Source of the DNA: Leucobacter chromiiresistens
GTDB lineage: Bacteria; Actinomycetota; Actinomycetes; Actinomycetales; Microbacteriaceae
Assembly: GCF_900102345.1 (NCBI RefSeq)
Contig: NZ_FNKB01000001.1
Span: 186,001 to 250,000, forward strand
DNA length: 64,000 nucleotides
Reading direction: 5' to 3'
Positions 50,581 to 54,286 of this stretch are shown one piece after another. A program made the translations under genes and the position numbers. The notes under the pieces were generated by a model, which ran no database searches, had not been told where the DNA came from, and worked only from the letters and a program-made list of their open reading frames with translations. Within the stretch, counting starts at the first letter, position 1. Each line of letters starts with the position of its first letter.

Positions 50581-51888
50581 TCACATGTCGGCGGTGATGC
50601 GGCCCGCCACGAGCGGCCGGGCGGCGGGCGCGCCGGCTCCCAGCTCCACGGCGCCGCGCAGCGCCTCGAGCCCCCGCGCCATGCGCCCCGCGTTGTCGCA
50701 GGCCGCCACGAAGAGGGCGTCGCCCGCGCGCACCCGGTCGCCCGGCCGCACGAGCACCTCGACGCCCGCGGCGTGATCGACGGGATCCCCCGGCCTGGCG
50801 CGGCCCGCGCCGAGCCGCCACGCTCCGACGCCGACGGATCGCGCGTCGACCCGCTGCACCGTGCCGTCGGCCTCGGCTCGTACGATCTCGCGCTCCCCCG
50901 CCTCGGGGAGCGCCGCGAGCGGATCGCCGCCCTGCGCCGCGATGAGCCGCCGCCACGCATCCATGGCTCGCCCGTCGCGCAGCGCCGGAGCCGGGTCGAC
51001 GTGCGGCATCCCGGCCAGCGCGAGCATCTCCCGCGCCAGCGCGAGGGTGAGCTCGACGACGTCGGCCGGGCCGCCGCCGGCGAGCACCTCCACCGCTTCG
51101 CGCACCTCGTTCGCGTTGCCGACGGCGCGCCCCAGGGGCGCATCCATGTCGGTGAGCAGCGCGACCGTGCGCAGACCCGAGTCCGCCCCGAGTCGCACCA
51201 TCGTCGTCGCGAGCTCGCGGGCGTCATCCACCTCGGGGAGGAAGGCGCCCGAGCCGAACTTCACGTCGAGCACCAGGCCGTTCGCGCCCTCTGCGATCTT
51301 CTTGCTCATGATCGAGGAGGCGATGAGCGGCACGGCGGCGACCGTGCCCGTCACGTCGCGGAGGGCGTACATCTTGCGATCCGCCGGAGCGAGGCCCGAG
51401 CCCGCCGCGCAGATCACCCCGCCGATGTCGGTGAGCATCGCGATCATCTCGTCATTCGTGAGCGACGCCCGCCACCCCGGAATCGATTCGAGCTTGTCGA
51501 GCGTGCCGCCCGTGTGCCCGAGGCCGCGCCCCGAGAGCTGCGGCACGGCGACGCCCAGCGACGCCAGCAGCGGCACCAGCGGAAGGGTGATCTTGTCGCC
51601 GACGCCGCCCGTCGAGTGCTTGTCGATCGCCGGGCGGCCGAGCTCGGTGAAGTCCATCCGCTCACCGCTCGCGATCATGGCCTCCGTCATCGCGCGGATC
51701 TCGTCGCGATCCATGCCGCGGATCACGATGGCCATGAGCAGCGCGCTCATCTGCTCCGGGGCGACGACTCCCCGCGTGAACGCGTCGATGAGCCACGCGA
51801 TCTCGTCAGGGGCGAGCGGCCTCCCGTGCCGTTTCGCGGTGATGAGGTCGACGACGTCGTGCGGCTCCACCGCGCGCTGCTGCTCCAT
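50581..51888 (-). CDS. deoA: Thymidine (pyrimidine nucleoside) phosphorylase
   Basis: A 435-residue nucleoside phosphorylase II enzyme. The signature KHSTGGVGDKITLPLVPLL and SGRGLGHTGGTLDKLESIPG identify the family; the glycosyltransferase alpha domain and C-terminal PYNP-like domain are complete. It splits thymidine or deoxyuridine with phosphate into base and deoxyribose 1-phosphate. Convergent with nnrD. GGAGG lies immediately before the ATG at 51888, with only one base between, while TACGCT six bases upstream allows leaderless translation instead. Confidence 0.93.
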   Translation of the reverse strand: MEQQRAVEPHDVVDLITAKRHGRPLAPDEIAWLIDAFTRGVVAPEQMSALLMAIVIRGMDRDEIRAMTEAMIASGERMDFTELGRPAIDKHSTGGVGDKITLPLVPLLASLGVAVPQLSGRGLGHTGGTLDKLESIPGWRASLTNDEMIAMLTDIGGVICAAGSGLAPADRKMYALRDVTGTVAAVPLIASSIMSKKIAEGANGLVLDVKFGSGAFLPEVDDARELATTMVRLGADSGLRTVALLTDMDAPLGRAVGNANEVREAVEVLAGGGPADVVELTLALAREMLALAGMPHVDPAPALRDGRAMDAWRRLIAAQGGDPLAALPEAGEREIVRAEADGTVQRVDARSVGVGAWRLGAGRARPGDPVDHAAGVEVLVRPGDRVRAGDALFVAACDNAGRMARGLEALRGAVELGAGAPAARPLVAGRITADM

Positions 51889-52120
51889 GCCTCCAGCGTA
51901 GACCGGCCCGGCTCGCGAGCGCGGTGCCGAGCGTCAGCATCGCGCCGAGGCAGATGAGCGCTCCACCCGTCTCCGCCGGCGCCGGTGTCTCCTCCGCGGC
52001 GGGCGCCGCGATCGCGAGCGCCGCGGAGCCGAGGAGCGCTGCGGCGATCGCGAGCGCGGCGACGACGCTGCGCACCCAGGTCGCGATGCGGCGCGTGCGA
52101 TGGTCGCGGCTGAGCGGCAT
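51806..52120 (-). CDS. Possible small exported or membrane protein overlapping deoA
   Basis: A 104-codon frame with ATG at 52120 preceded by GGAG. The first 55 residues look like a real signal or membrane segment (VRSVVAALAIAAALLGSAALA), then PAPAETGGALICLGAMLTLG. The last 27 residues are Arg/Ala-rich and overlap the deoA coding sequence by 83 bases in another frame, which is typical of a shadow. Either a small membrane protein with a poor tail or not a gene. No function can be assigned. Confidence 0.35.
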   Translation of the reverse strand: MPLSRDHRTRRIATWVRSVVAALAIAAALLGSAALAIAAPAAEETPAPAETGGALICLGAMLTLGTALASRAGLRWRHGAAARGGAARRRRPHHRETAREAARP

Positions 52121-52480
52121 GGGGGTGCTCCAGGGGACGTGCGGGTGCTTCGGGCGTGTGGGTTCCATGGCGGGGCGGGCAGGGCGAACGGGGTGGCGGG
52201 CAGTGCGGCGAGCGCTGCGGGATCGCCCGGCTCCCGCCTCGGGGTACTACTGGGTTGGGGGCGAGGCGAGAACCGGGCTTGCATATGAGACGCGAGAACC
52301 CCCGAATCGTGACGCGCGTTTGCCGAATCTTCTGCGCACCTGAGCCCTCGACTCGGTTTTTCGGCCGATTCGGCGCATACTATGTGTCGGGGGTTTCGTC
52401 GCGGCATGTCTGCGGCGTCACGGGAACGCGTGCGCGCGGGTCTCGATCATTGGGGTACGTGCACCACGAGGAGACCCCGA
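52121..52480. other. Upstream region of the sigma/anti-sigma fusion gene
   Basis: TACTAT (52378-52383) is a plausible housekeeping -10 about 100 bases before the start, without a clear -35. GGGAAC (52421-52426), then 16 bases and CGATC (52443-52447) resembles an ECF sigma promoter and would allow autoregulation, but the -10 half is weak. ACGAGGAG precedes the ATG. Leftward, on the minus strand, are the start signals of the small membrane ORF. No other gene is supported. Confidence 0.4.
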
Positions 52481-54286
52481 ATGCTCGACCCGGTACTCGC
52501 CGATCTCACCGACGCTGAACTGCTCGACACGACGCGCGGCGGAGACACCTCCGCCTTCGCCGTGCTCTGGAAGCGGCACAGCGGAGCGGGTCTGGTCGCC
52601 GCCCGGCACCTCGGCTCCGCATCCTCGGCCGACGACATCGTCTCCGAGGCGTACCTGCGCATCCTCGAGCTCGTACTGTCGGGCCGCGGCCCGCAGGGAG
52701 CGTTCCGCCCCTACCTCTACCGCACGATCCAGTCGATCGCGGCCGACACGTGGCGCCGACCCGAAGACGCGCGAGACGACTTCGATCACCTGCCCGACGA
52801 CGCGGAGGTCGCGCCGTGGCACGACGACGCCTTCGACCGGGCCGCGGCCGCTCGCGCGTTCGGCACGCTGAACGAGCGGTGGCAGGCGGTGCTCTGGTAC
52901 ACCGAGGTCGAGACCCTGCCGCGGCGCGACGTGGCCCGCATACTCGGGCTCACCCCGAACGGGGTCTCCGCGCTCGCGAAGCGAGCCCGCGAGGCGCTGC
53001 GCTCGGCCTGGGTGGAGGCGCACGTCGATCGGGACCTGCGCGACGCGGAGTGCCGCTCCACGCTCGGGCATCTGCAGCGCTACCAGCGCGGCAAGCTCAC
53101 GGCCGCGGTGAGCCGTCAGGTCGAGGCGCATCTCGACTCGTGCGAGACGTGCGCCCGGGTCGCCGCCGAGTACACGGTGCTCAACCGCCGGCTCGCGCTC
53201 GTGCTCATCGGCGTTCTGCTCGGCGGCGGCACGGCTTACGGGTTCCTCGGCGGCGCGGGTGCGGCGGCGCCGGCGATGGCGGTCGGACCCCCTCAGCACG
53301 GTGCCGGGTCGGGCGCCTCGGCCGGGCCCGCGGGCGCCGACGGCGCGAGCGGAGCCGCCGGGGCGGGCTCCTCGAGCGCGAGCGCGGGTTCGGCCGGGGC
53401 GCCGGCGGGCGCGGTCGCAGGTGGAGGCCTCTTCGGCGGCGCATCGGCGACGCTGCTCATCGCCACGGCGACGGCGGCAGCGCTCGTGATCGGCGGCGGC
53501 GCCGTCGTGCTCTCGCGGTCCGCCGACGCCGCGAGCACGCCTGCGGTCGCCGCCGAATCGGTCGACGCCGGATCGGCGGACGCGACCGATGCGGACGACG
53601 GGGCCGATGCGGGTCCCGATGACGGCGAGCAGCGCGAGCTCGGAGATGATGAGCCGAGCGGCGACGCGGGCGGCGCTGACGGGGGCGGTGTCGGCGGGGC
53701 CGATCCGGGCGCGGGCGCAGACCCGGTCTTCGTCGAGGTTCCGGTGACGGAGGTCGCCCCGCCCGCTGAGCCGGCCGCGCCCGCGGGCGAGGCTCCGCAG
53801 CCTCCGGCACCGCGGCCCGAGCCGGCTCCCGGGTCGGGTGCGCAGCCCGCGCCCGCTCCGCAGCCCGAACCCGCGCCGGGCCCCGGCCCGCACCCCGAGC
53901 CCGAACCGCAGCCCGAGCCCGAACCGCAACCCGAGCCCGAGCCCGAAGCCGACCCGTTCGCTCCGACCGATCTGCGCTGGGCGCAGTGCCTCGACGGGCG
54001 GGTCTACATCGAGGGCCGCTCCGAGCTGTACGGCTCGCTCGTCGTCGCCCGAGTGGTCTCGGGAGACCAGGCGGTCGAGCACTTCGAACGGATGCAAGTC
54101 ATCCCCGGCCCGAACGGCCTGGGCATCTGGTACACGAGCACGCCCATCTCGCTGCCCGATCCGAGTGACGGAGCGACGATCGAAGTGCAGCTCAGCACGA
54201 GCGCCGGTCAGGCTTCTCGCTGGACGCCCATCGACTTCAGCGCGACGAGCGGCGCTCCAGCGGGGCCCGGCTGTCGGGCTCGGTAG
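52481..54286 (+). CDS. ECF-type sigma factor fused to zinc anti-sigma domain, membrane segment and external tail
   Basis: A 601-residue protein combining a sigma factor and its inhibitor. Sigma region 2 spans about residues 25-95 (DDIVSEAYLRILELV, FRPYLYRTIQSIAADTWRR) and region 4 about 125-178 (RRDVARILGLTPNGVSALAKRAREAL). A ZAS-type zinc motif follows: Cys191, His217, Cys221, Cys224. Hydrophobic segments lie at about 237-257 and 321-345, with a Gly/Ala/Ser linker between. Then come an acidic region, a Pro/Glu repeat (430-490) and a C-terminal domain (495-601) with Cys503 and Cys598. The ATG follows GAGGAG. Actinobacterial ECF groups with fused zinc and membrane parts are known. No separate anti-sigma gene is adjacent. 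If both segments cross the membrane, the tail would be inside, so topology is open. Confidence 0.85.
   Translation: MLDPVLADLTDAELLDTTRGGDTSAFAVLWKRHSGAGLVAARHLGSASSADDIVSEAYLRILELVLSGRGPQGAFRPYLYRTIQSIAADTWRRPEDARDDFDHLPDDAEVAPWHDDAFDRAAAARAFGTLNERWQAVLWYTEVETLPRRDVARILGLTPNGVSALAKRAREALRSAWVEAHVDRDLRDAECRSTLGHLQRYQRGKLTAAVSRQVEAHLDSCETCARVAAEYTVLNRRLALVLIGVLLGGGTAYGFLGGAGAAAPAMAVGPPQHGAGSGASAGPAGADGASGAAGAGSSSASAGSAGAPAGAVAGGGLFGGASATLLIATATAAALVIGGGAVVLSRSADAASTPAVAAESVDAGSADATDADDGADAGPDDGEQRELGDDEPSGDAGGADGGGVGGADPGAGADPVFVEVPVTEVAPPAEPAAPAGEAPQPPAPRPEPAPGSGAQPAPAPQPEPAPGPGPHPEPEPQPEPEPQPEPEPEADPFAPTDLRWAQCLDGRVYIEGRSELYGSLVVARVVSGDQAVEHFERMQVIPGPNGLGIWYTSTPISLPDPSDGATIEVQLSTSAGQASRWTPIDFSATSGAPAGPGCRAR

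Follow-up and report, generated by a model that had tools for sequence, protein, structure and literature searches.

We propose, with a probability of roughly 0.55, that the single-chain ECF sigma factor encoded at 52481-54286 of the window (the whole stretch of 64,000 nucleotides of Leucobacter chromiiresistens DNA analysed here) is held at the membrane and controls a giant surface protein in trans, by way of a shared promoter-like element. According to this proposal the fused zinc anti-sigma domain would keep the ECF sigma part inactive at the membrane, and one span, most likely the second of two hydrophobic segments, would carry a Pro/Glu linker and a disulfide-capable FnIII/Ig-like domain on the outside. 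A surface event on this outer domain would set the sigma part free, probably by regulated proteolysis, and the freed sigma would act at elements of the form TAACACG-N11-GAATCGTGACGCG, at its own gene and at genes for giant, sortase-type anchored surface proteins; the sigma gene may be autoregulated. In the window lineage the local giant would be gone, with the one remaining sigma factor serving a giant encoded 314 kb away.

Domain structure and membrane topology

The features of the gene and of its product are the following:

52468-52473, plus strand: GAGGAG ribosome-binding site, from direct reading of the sequence
52481-54286, plus strand: single-chain ECF sigma factor gene, 601 aa plus stop, with no internal stop
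52595-52759, plus strand: sigma-70 region 2, residues 39-93 (Pfam Sigma70_r2 PF04542, 30.3 bits, cut-off 24)
52847-52999, plus strand: sigma-70 region 4, residues 123-173 (Sigma70_r4_2 PF08281, 24.1 bits, slightly below the cut-off of 25.7)
53051-53155, plus strand: zinc anti-sigma (ZAS) motif, residues 191-225 (zf-HC2 PF13490, 26.8 bits, cut-off 22.2)
53192-53248, plus strand: hydrophobic segment 1, residues 238-256, directly C-terminal to the ZAS helix
53453-53509, plus strand: hydrophobic segment 2, residues 325-343, the most likely membrane span from its flank charges
53768-53941, plus strand: Pro/Glu-rich linker, about residues 430-487, from direct reading of the translation
53966-54274, plus strand: putative C-terminal FnIII/Ig-like beta-sandwich domain with Cys503 and Cys598, from alignment and a weak fold match

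The position of the ribosome-binding site favours the ATG at 52481 over an in-frame ATG at 52382. Besides the Pfam matches, the protein scores 46.1 bits against TIGR02937 (sigma70-ECF, NCBIfam), above the cut-off of 42.9, and no substitution of the ZAS ligands Cys191, His217, Cys221 and Cys224 occurs in any of the 32 aligned proteins (alignment A1) or in a wider alignment of 18 rows. A preliminary description, made from the sequence alone, had read sigma regions 2 and 4, a ZAS motif, two hydrophobic segments, a Pro/Glu repeat and a two-cysteine C-terminal domain in one frame, and the profile matches and invariant ligands bear this reading out. It had also reported that a separate anti-sigma gene was absent, with which our results agree: none was found adjoining the sigma gene, and the only further zf-HC2 match in the window genome is a short ORF elsewhere, beside another sigma gene, which we take to be RsrA-like. 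That a frameshift or an assembly error might have joined two genes is ruled out because many relatives have an uninterrupted frame; the sigma fusion gene is confirmed as real and intact, and not an artefact. Its neighbours are presumably thymidine-phosphorylase-like (deoA-like), YihY-like and sdhBA-like genes. The YihY-like frame, on the minus strand, is convergent with the sigma gene, and its stop end overlaps the 3' end of the latter by 50 bp (54237-54286).

The C-terminal domain follows the Pro/Glu linker and is about 105 residues long. Cys503 and Cys598 are invariant in all 23 domains of alignment A2, from which four proteins (L077, L078, L083 and L087) were omitted as being without an alignable domain; L083 and L087 have Pro-rich repeats at their end, the frame of L078 appears broken, and an HMM of the domain later matched L077, as well as L091. 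In the orthologues L083 and L087 long PPE[VI]-type repeats stand in place of the sensor domain, yet a giant gene adjoins. The fold is suggested to be a beta sandwich of FnIII/Ig-like arrangement, by a weak match at the background level of the tool. The top PDB rows in Foldseek were TEAD chains (E 0.002-0.01, TM below 0.5), which we read as a shared beta sandwich, setting kinship with TEAD aside. Among ORFs of at least 120 aa in loci L066-L225 the HMM matched only sigma C-termini, and the giants are therefore without this domain. A region search with residues 488-601 returned no homologues, but it failed to recover even the known relatives P0002 and P0003, which makes its empty result uninformative. 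The NPCBM domain (PF08305) that Streptomyces relatives carry gave no Pfam match in the window protein at E up to 1; other relatives carry Big-type and NPCBM domains at their C-terminal end. The preliminary description had called the domain unfamiliar, and this stands insofar as it was found, in the searched loci, only at sigma C-termini, and insofar as we found in the open-access literature no description of such an FnIII/Ig-like C-terminal domain with an invariant cysteine pair on these sigma factors; as for its fold, the weak match gives it a tentative class.

The location of this domain was approached through charge statistics on 134 non-redundant relatives (of 139; 201 before thinning), counting 12 residues on each side of segment 2. 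Summed over these proteins, the flank before the segment holds 91 K+R and 16 D+E, and the flank after it 48 K+R and 129 D+E; per protein, 49 of the 134 have more K+R before the segment than after it, 23 have fewer and 62 have the same number. Since positive charges flank a membrane span on its inner side (the positive-inside rule), the likelier course of segment 2 is outward from the cytoplasm, which would leave the C-terminal domain outside the cell. This location is also favoured by the invariant cysteines, which would fit an oxidising outside, by the suggested FnIII/Ig-like arrangement and by the domains of relatives. Alternatively, both segments might span the membrane, and a cytoplasmic C-terminal domain would sense an internal ligand or fold back on the sigma part. 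Hydropathy agrees with such a topology, as both segments exceed 1.5 on the scale in 125 of the 134 relatives, while the summed charge asymmetry at segment 2, the cysteine pair, the Pro-rich linker and the Ig-type and NPCBM domains of relatives all argue against it; moreover, in a structure model ignorant of membranes, a predicted helix (222-246) stops about nine residues into segment 1. We regard two spans as quite improbable, and segment 1 is, on this evidence, probably not a full membrane span. The loop between the two segments is nearly without charge in the 134 relatives. The earlier doubt about where the C-terminal domain lies was justified; the summed charges favour the outside, and the per-protein counts are softer.

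Giant surface-protein genes and the window locus

A scan of named genomes gave at least 538 relatives of the protein, of which the best 80 are all from actinomycetes, and the nearest named relatives belong to Leucobacter. In this genus 44 of 54 genomes have a match at E 1e-20, with 121 matches in all and up to 13 per genome; the window genome has one sigma gene of this fused family.

Pairing with giant genes was counted at 53 of the 121 genus matches, outside the window genome and with long flanks, a sample that is not random and comprises the best matches of many genomes, all 13 of genome G051 and others. A sigma locus was scored as paired when a complete ORF of at least 600 aa, with TG, a hydrophobic stretch and Arg/Lys at its C-terminal end, lay within 800 bp of the sigma frame. 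By this strict rule 32 of the 53 loci adjoin a giant sortase-type anchored ORF (12 of the 23 loci with a core identity of at least 50%, and 20 of the other 30), and in G051 all 13 do so. Under a near-equal rule, only 8 of 324 probe positions (about 2.5%) were adjacent to such an ORF in 20 systematic 20-kb control stretches, which contain 4 anchored giant ORFs per 400 kb; Fisher's test gives p = 5e-25, a value that is only indicative because the probes overlap and the loci are related. The strict count, which 21 loci fail, misses giants that are cut by the locus end, split or overlapping the sigma frame, and gene calls show that L068, L074, L076 and L081 also have a giant. The scanned giants carry SdrD_B, DUF7507, DUF11, DUF5979 or Big-type domains. 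Outside Leucobacter the pairing is rare, being found at 3 of 76 loci among the best 80 of the at least 538 relatives (4 loci pass, one of which, L149, is from Leucobacter, and some flanks are short). No earlier description of this sigma/giant pairing in Leucobacter was found in the open-access literature.

At the sigma locus of the window, and anywhere else in its 64 kb, no giant was found. At many orthologous loci, recognised by the sdhBA-like and YihY-like genes, a divergent giant adjoins the sigma gene, and the window, L066, L067 and L069 have a deoA-like gene where the others have the giant. Because these four giant-less loci form one clade (100/99) among the giant-bearing orthologues, the simplest account is that the window lineage lost its neighbouring giant once; the deeper branches are uncertain, and the giants are of more than one type. 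A further locus without a giant, L072, was left out of the tree, and the strict rule detects no giant at L070, L077 or L090. At the place of the relatives' giant the window has a small ORF:

51806-52168, minus strand: small ORF with a signal peptide, a short stub, and ETGG plus a hydrophobic anchor

A similar ORF was seen only in L066, the nearest relative (85% identical), and not in L069 or L072. It is possibly the relic of a collapsed surface-protein gene.

The loss of its partner might have left the window sigma gene a decaying orphan, as the empty locus and a changed half-site in its upstream element could suggest. We consider this very improbable, since in the comparison with L066 dN/dS is about 0.14 in the core (dN 0.035, dS 0.25), about 0.37 in the C-terminal domain (dN 0.25, dS 0.68) and under 0.5 in each of the four segments compared, the zinc ligands and cysteines are intact, and a giant bearing the element is present in trans. 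The sigma gene is under purifying selection.

A 31-bp element shared by sigma and surface-protein genes

Upstream of the sigma gene two conserved stretches were recognised:

52286-52316, no strand assigned: conserved promoter-like dyad TGAGACG-N11-GAATCGTGACGCG (consensus TAACACG-N11-GAATCGTGACGCG, 31 bp)
52376-52385, plus strand: second conserved block GCATACTATG, from the upstream alignment, a possible housekeeping -10

In 17 of 23 orthologues a conserved block of about 45 bp lies 179-204 bp upstream of the aligned start; the window copy of the dyad has TGAGACG in place of TAACACG in one half. With up to 2 mismatches, the 54 genomes contain 27 matches to the consensus and 2 to the reversed pattern. 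By their coordinates, 20 of the 27 lie at sigma genes of the fused family, but the pattern was built from many of these 20 copies, which are thus no independent test. A looser pattern with the correct gap had matches in 34 genomes but also many control matches, and the stricter one was therefore used. For the more distant paralogues, a dyad search upstream of sigma and giant genes in L085-L118 gave nothing above control. We found no earlier description of the TAACACG-N11-GAATCGTGACGCG element in the open-access literature.

Seven copies are unlinked to sigma genes. Five stand directly upstream of genes for anchored surface proteins of 538-1452 aa (L139, L141, L142, L226 and L228), and, as L141 and L142 represent the same gene in two species, these amount to 4 independent surface-protein gene families. 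The other two lie before a gene that we take to be of AraC type (L140) and 267 bp from one that is presumably aminopeptidase-like (L227). The start codons of the genes behind the unlinked copies were chosen by hand. Genome G023, which is also without a local giant, carries at another locus an element copy that lies 60 bp upstream of the gene for an anchored giant of 1445 aa. In the same genome the copy before the AraC-type gene (L140 8980-9010) is a perfect one, and this gene is possibly a second regulon layer. At L074 an apparent insertion sequence lies between sigma and giant, and the element remains with the giant.

In the window genome, searched with up to 3 mismatches, the element has two matches, at 52286-52316 of the window and at G000:C1:552154-552184, and the reversed pattern has none. 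The second match stands before a giant gene (G000:C1:547725-552080) 314 kb from the sigma gene, with a likely start at L226:7949 that gives 1408 aa (1452 from the longest frame), an LAVTG anchor and DUF5979 repeats. No sigma gene lies beside this giant in the window genome; its orthologue in G002, to which it is 82% identical, adjoins a sigma paralogue that is 57% identical to the window sigma in the core. The nearest relative, G009, has one sigma gene and the same unlinked giant (96%), with a more diverged element (4 mismatches). The simplest reading would be that reciprocal loss left one sigma and one giant, unlinked and with a common promoter type.

The element is nearly an inverted repeat (CACG/CGTG), and for this reason another regulator could own it; this near-palindrome and the altered half-site of the window copy weigh most heavily against the proposal. 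The protein might then be an ordinary ECF52-type sigma factor whose regulon is unrelated, and the element the operator of that other regulator, for example a dimeric repressor, over both sigma and surface-protein genes; the unlinked copy before the AraC-type gene would agree with this, and the adjacency of sigma and giant is by itself no proof of control. Against such an operator, the element occurs at sigma genes of the fused family in 19 genomes besides the window genome, and ECF promoters have an AAC...CGT spacing that its half-sites fit. We therefore consider the operator unlikely and prefer use of the element by the sigma factor. The direction of the element is ambiguous: the spacing fits the sigma direction, while all 7 unlinked copies, which share one orientation relative to their genes, read the opposite way. 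A reading of the element in the sigma direction alone was set aside because the genes that these copies face lie on its opposite side.

Known fused sigma factors and the mode of activation

Fused ECF groups were already linked to this protein in the preliminary description, and the class is indeed described, as ECF48, ECF52 and ECF53 of actinobacteria, which combine a fused zinc finger with one or two membrane helices (PMC8999054, PMC5826349); the single-chain design is therefore not new. Activation of these groups is expected to proceed through proteolysis (PMC8999054), ECF52 is described as exclusive to actinobacteria (PMC5826349, PMC8999054), and some ECF52/53 proteins have predicted glycosyl-hydrolase and carbohydrate-binding domains (PMC10766802). 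The first characterised ECF52 member, SCO4117 of Streptomyces coelicolor, combines a zinc finger, a membrane region, a proline-rich stretch and a carbohydrate-binding domain, and the 2018 paper on it left promoter and signal open (PMC5826349). The Leucobacter protein resembles it in several respects: both ECF sigma regions (2 and 4) are present, the fused zinc finger (pfam13490) retains its ligands, one or more hydrophobic segments come next, and a proline-rich extension precedes another C-terminal domain. It differs in that this last domain is tentatively FnIII/Ig-like instead of NPCBM and in that the Leucobacter genes frequently stand beside a gene for a giant anchored surface protein; the motif proposed for SCO4117, CSGYN-17-SRHA (PMC5826349), also differs from the Leucobacter element. 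In our tree a clade separate from Leucobacter (100/99) unites the five NPCBM proteins of Streptomyces. ECF53 and ECF48 are alike in having a zinc finger with one or two membrane helices, a likeness by description only (PMC8999054). No link of such fused sigma factors with sortase-anchored proteins, with Leucobacter or with Microbacteriaceae was found in the open-access literature beyond the ECF52/53 papers. The architecture is known, and what is new is the putative FnIII/Ig-like sensor domain and the candidate regulatory partner.

The same membrane-bound sigma factor could instead be activated by a reversible change of shape, without cleavage, since conformational activation is known in other fused ECF groups such as the ECF41 type (PMC8999054). 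The tethered sigma would in that case need to transcribe at the membrane, and the data on SCO4117 truncation and on IutY, whose release by proteolysis has been shown, are taken in a review as favouring release (PMC8999054, PMC5826349). A change of shape is thus, in our opinion, rather unlikely, and release by proteolysis is preferred. IutY of Pseudomonas putida (ECF243) likewise has sigma and membrane anti-sigma in one chain with proteolytic activation (PMC8999054). It differs in its role in aerobactin cell-surface signalling, its Gram-negative host and its other domains. Clostridial SigI/RsgI also exert membrane-held control of a sigma factor that governs surface proteins, but they are two proteins, with another sigma class and carbohydrate sensors.

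A wider model, which we offer tentatively and hold to be somewhat less probable than the proposal for the window sigma factor, is that membrane sigma switches made of a single protein form, in Leucobacter, a family open to expansion, every member of which would control a giant sortase-type anchored protein of its own. The outer FnIII/Ig-like domain would read the state of the surface (perhaps the partner itself) and set the expression of the adhesin. The window species would keep one switch and one adhesin at separate loci, with a shared promoter, after reciprocal loss. If this is true, many surface proteins of an actinobacterial genus may each be under a private switch, with as many as 13 switches in a single genome. 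The family supplies anchored surface proteins as candidate targets, a promoter candidate, a small sensor domain and lineages in which genes were naturally lost, so that what such fusions sense and control becomes testable.

Two further observations concern the paralogues. Six distant ones (L037, L038, L043, L045, L051 and L052) have a short acidic-aromatic tail exactly at the C-terminus, in forms such as DD.[ST]PNW..[IV]E or DGETDGWVV.ED, which could be a recognition tag. Fused sigma paralogues also occur as tandem pairs, at L044 817-3821 (also L114) and at L052 2603-5558, and the pair of L114 adjoins a giant gene of 2110 aa.
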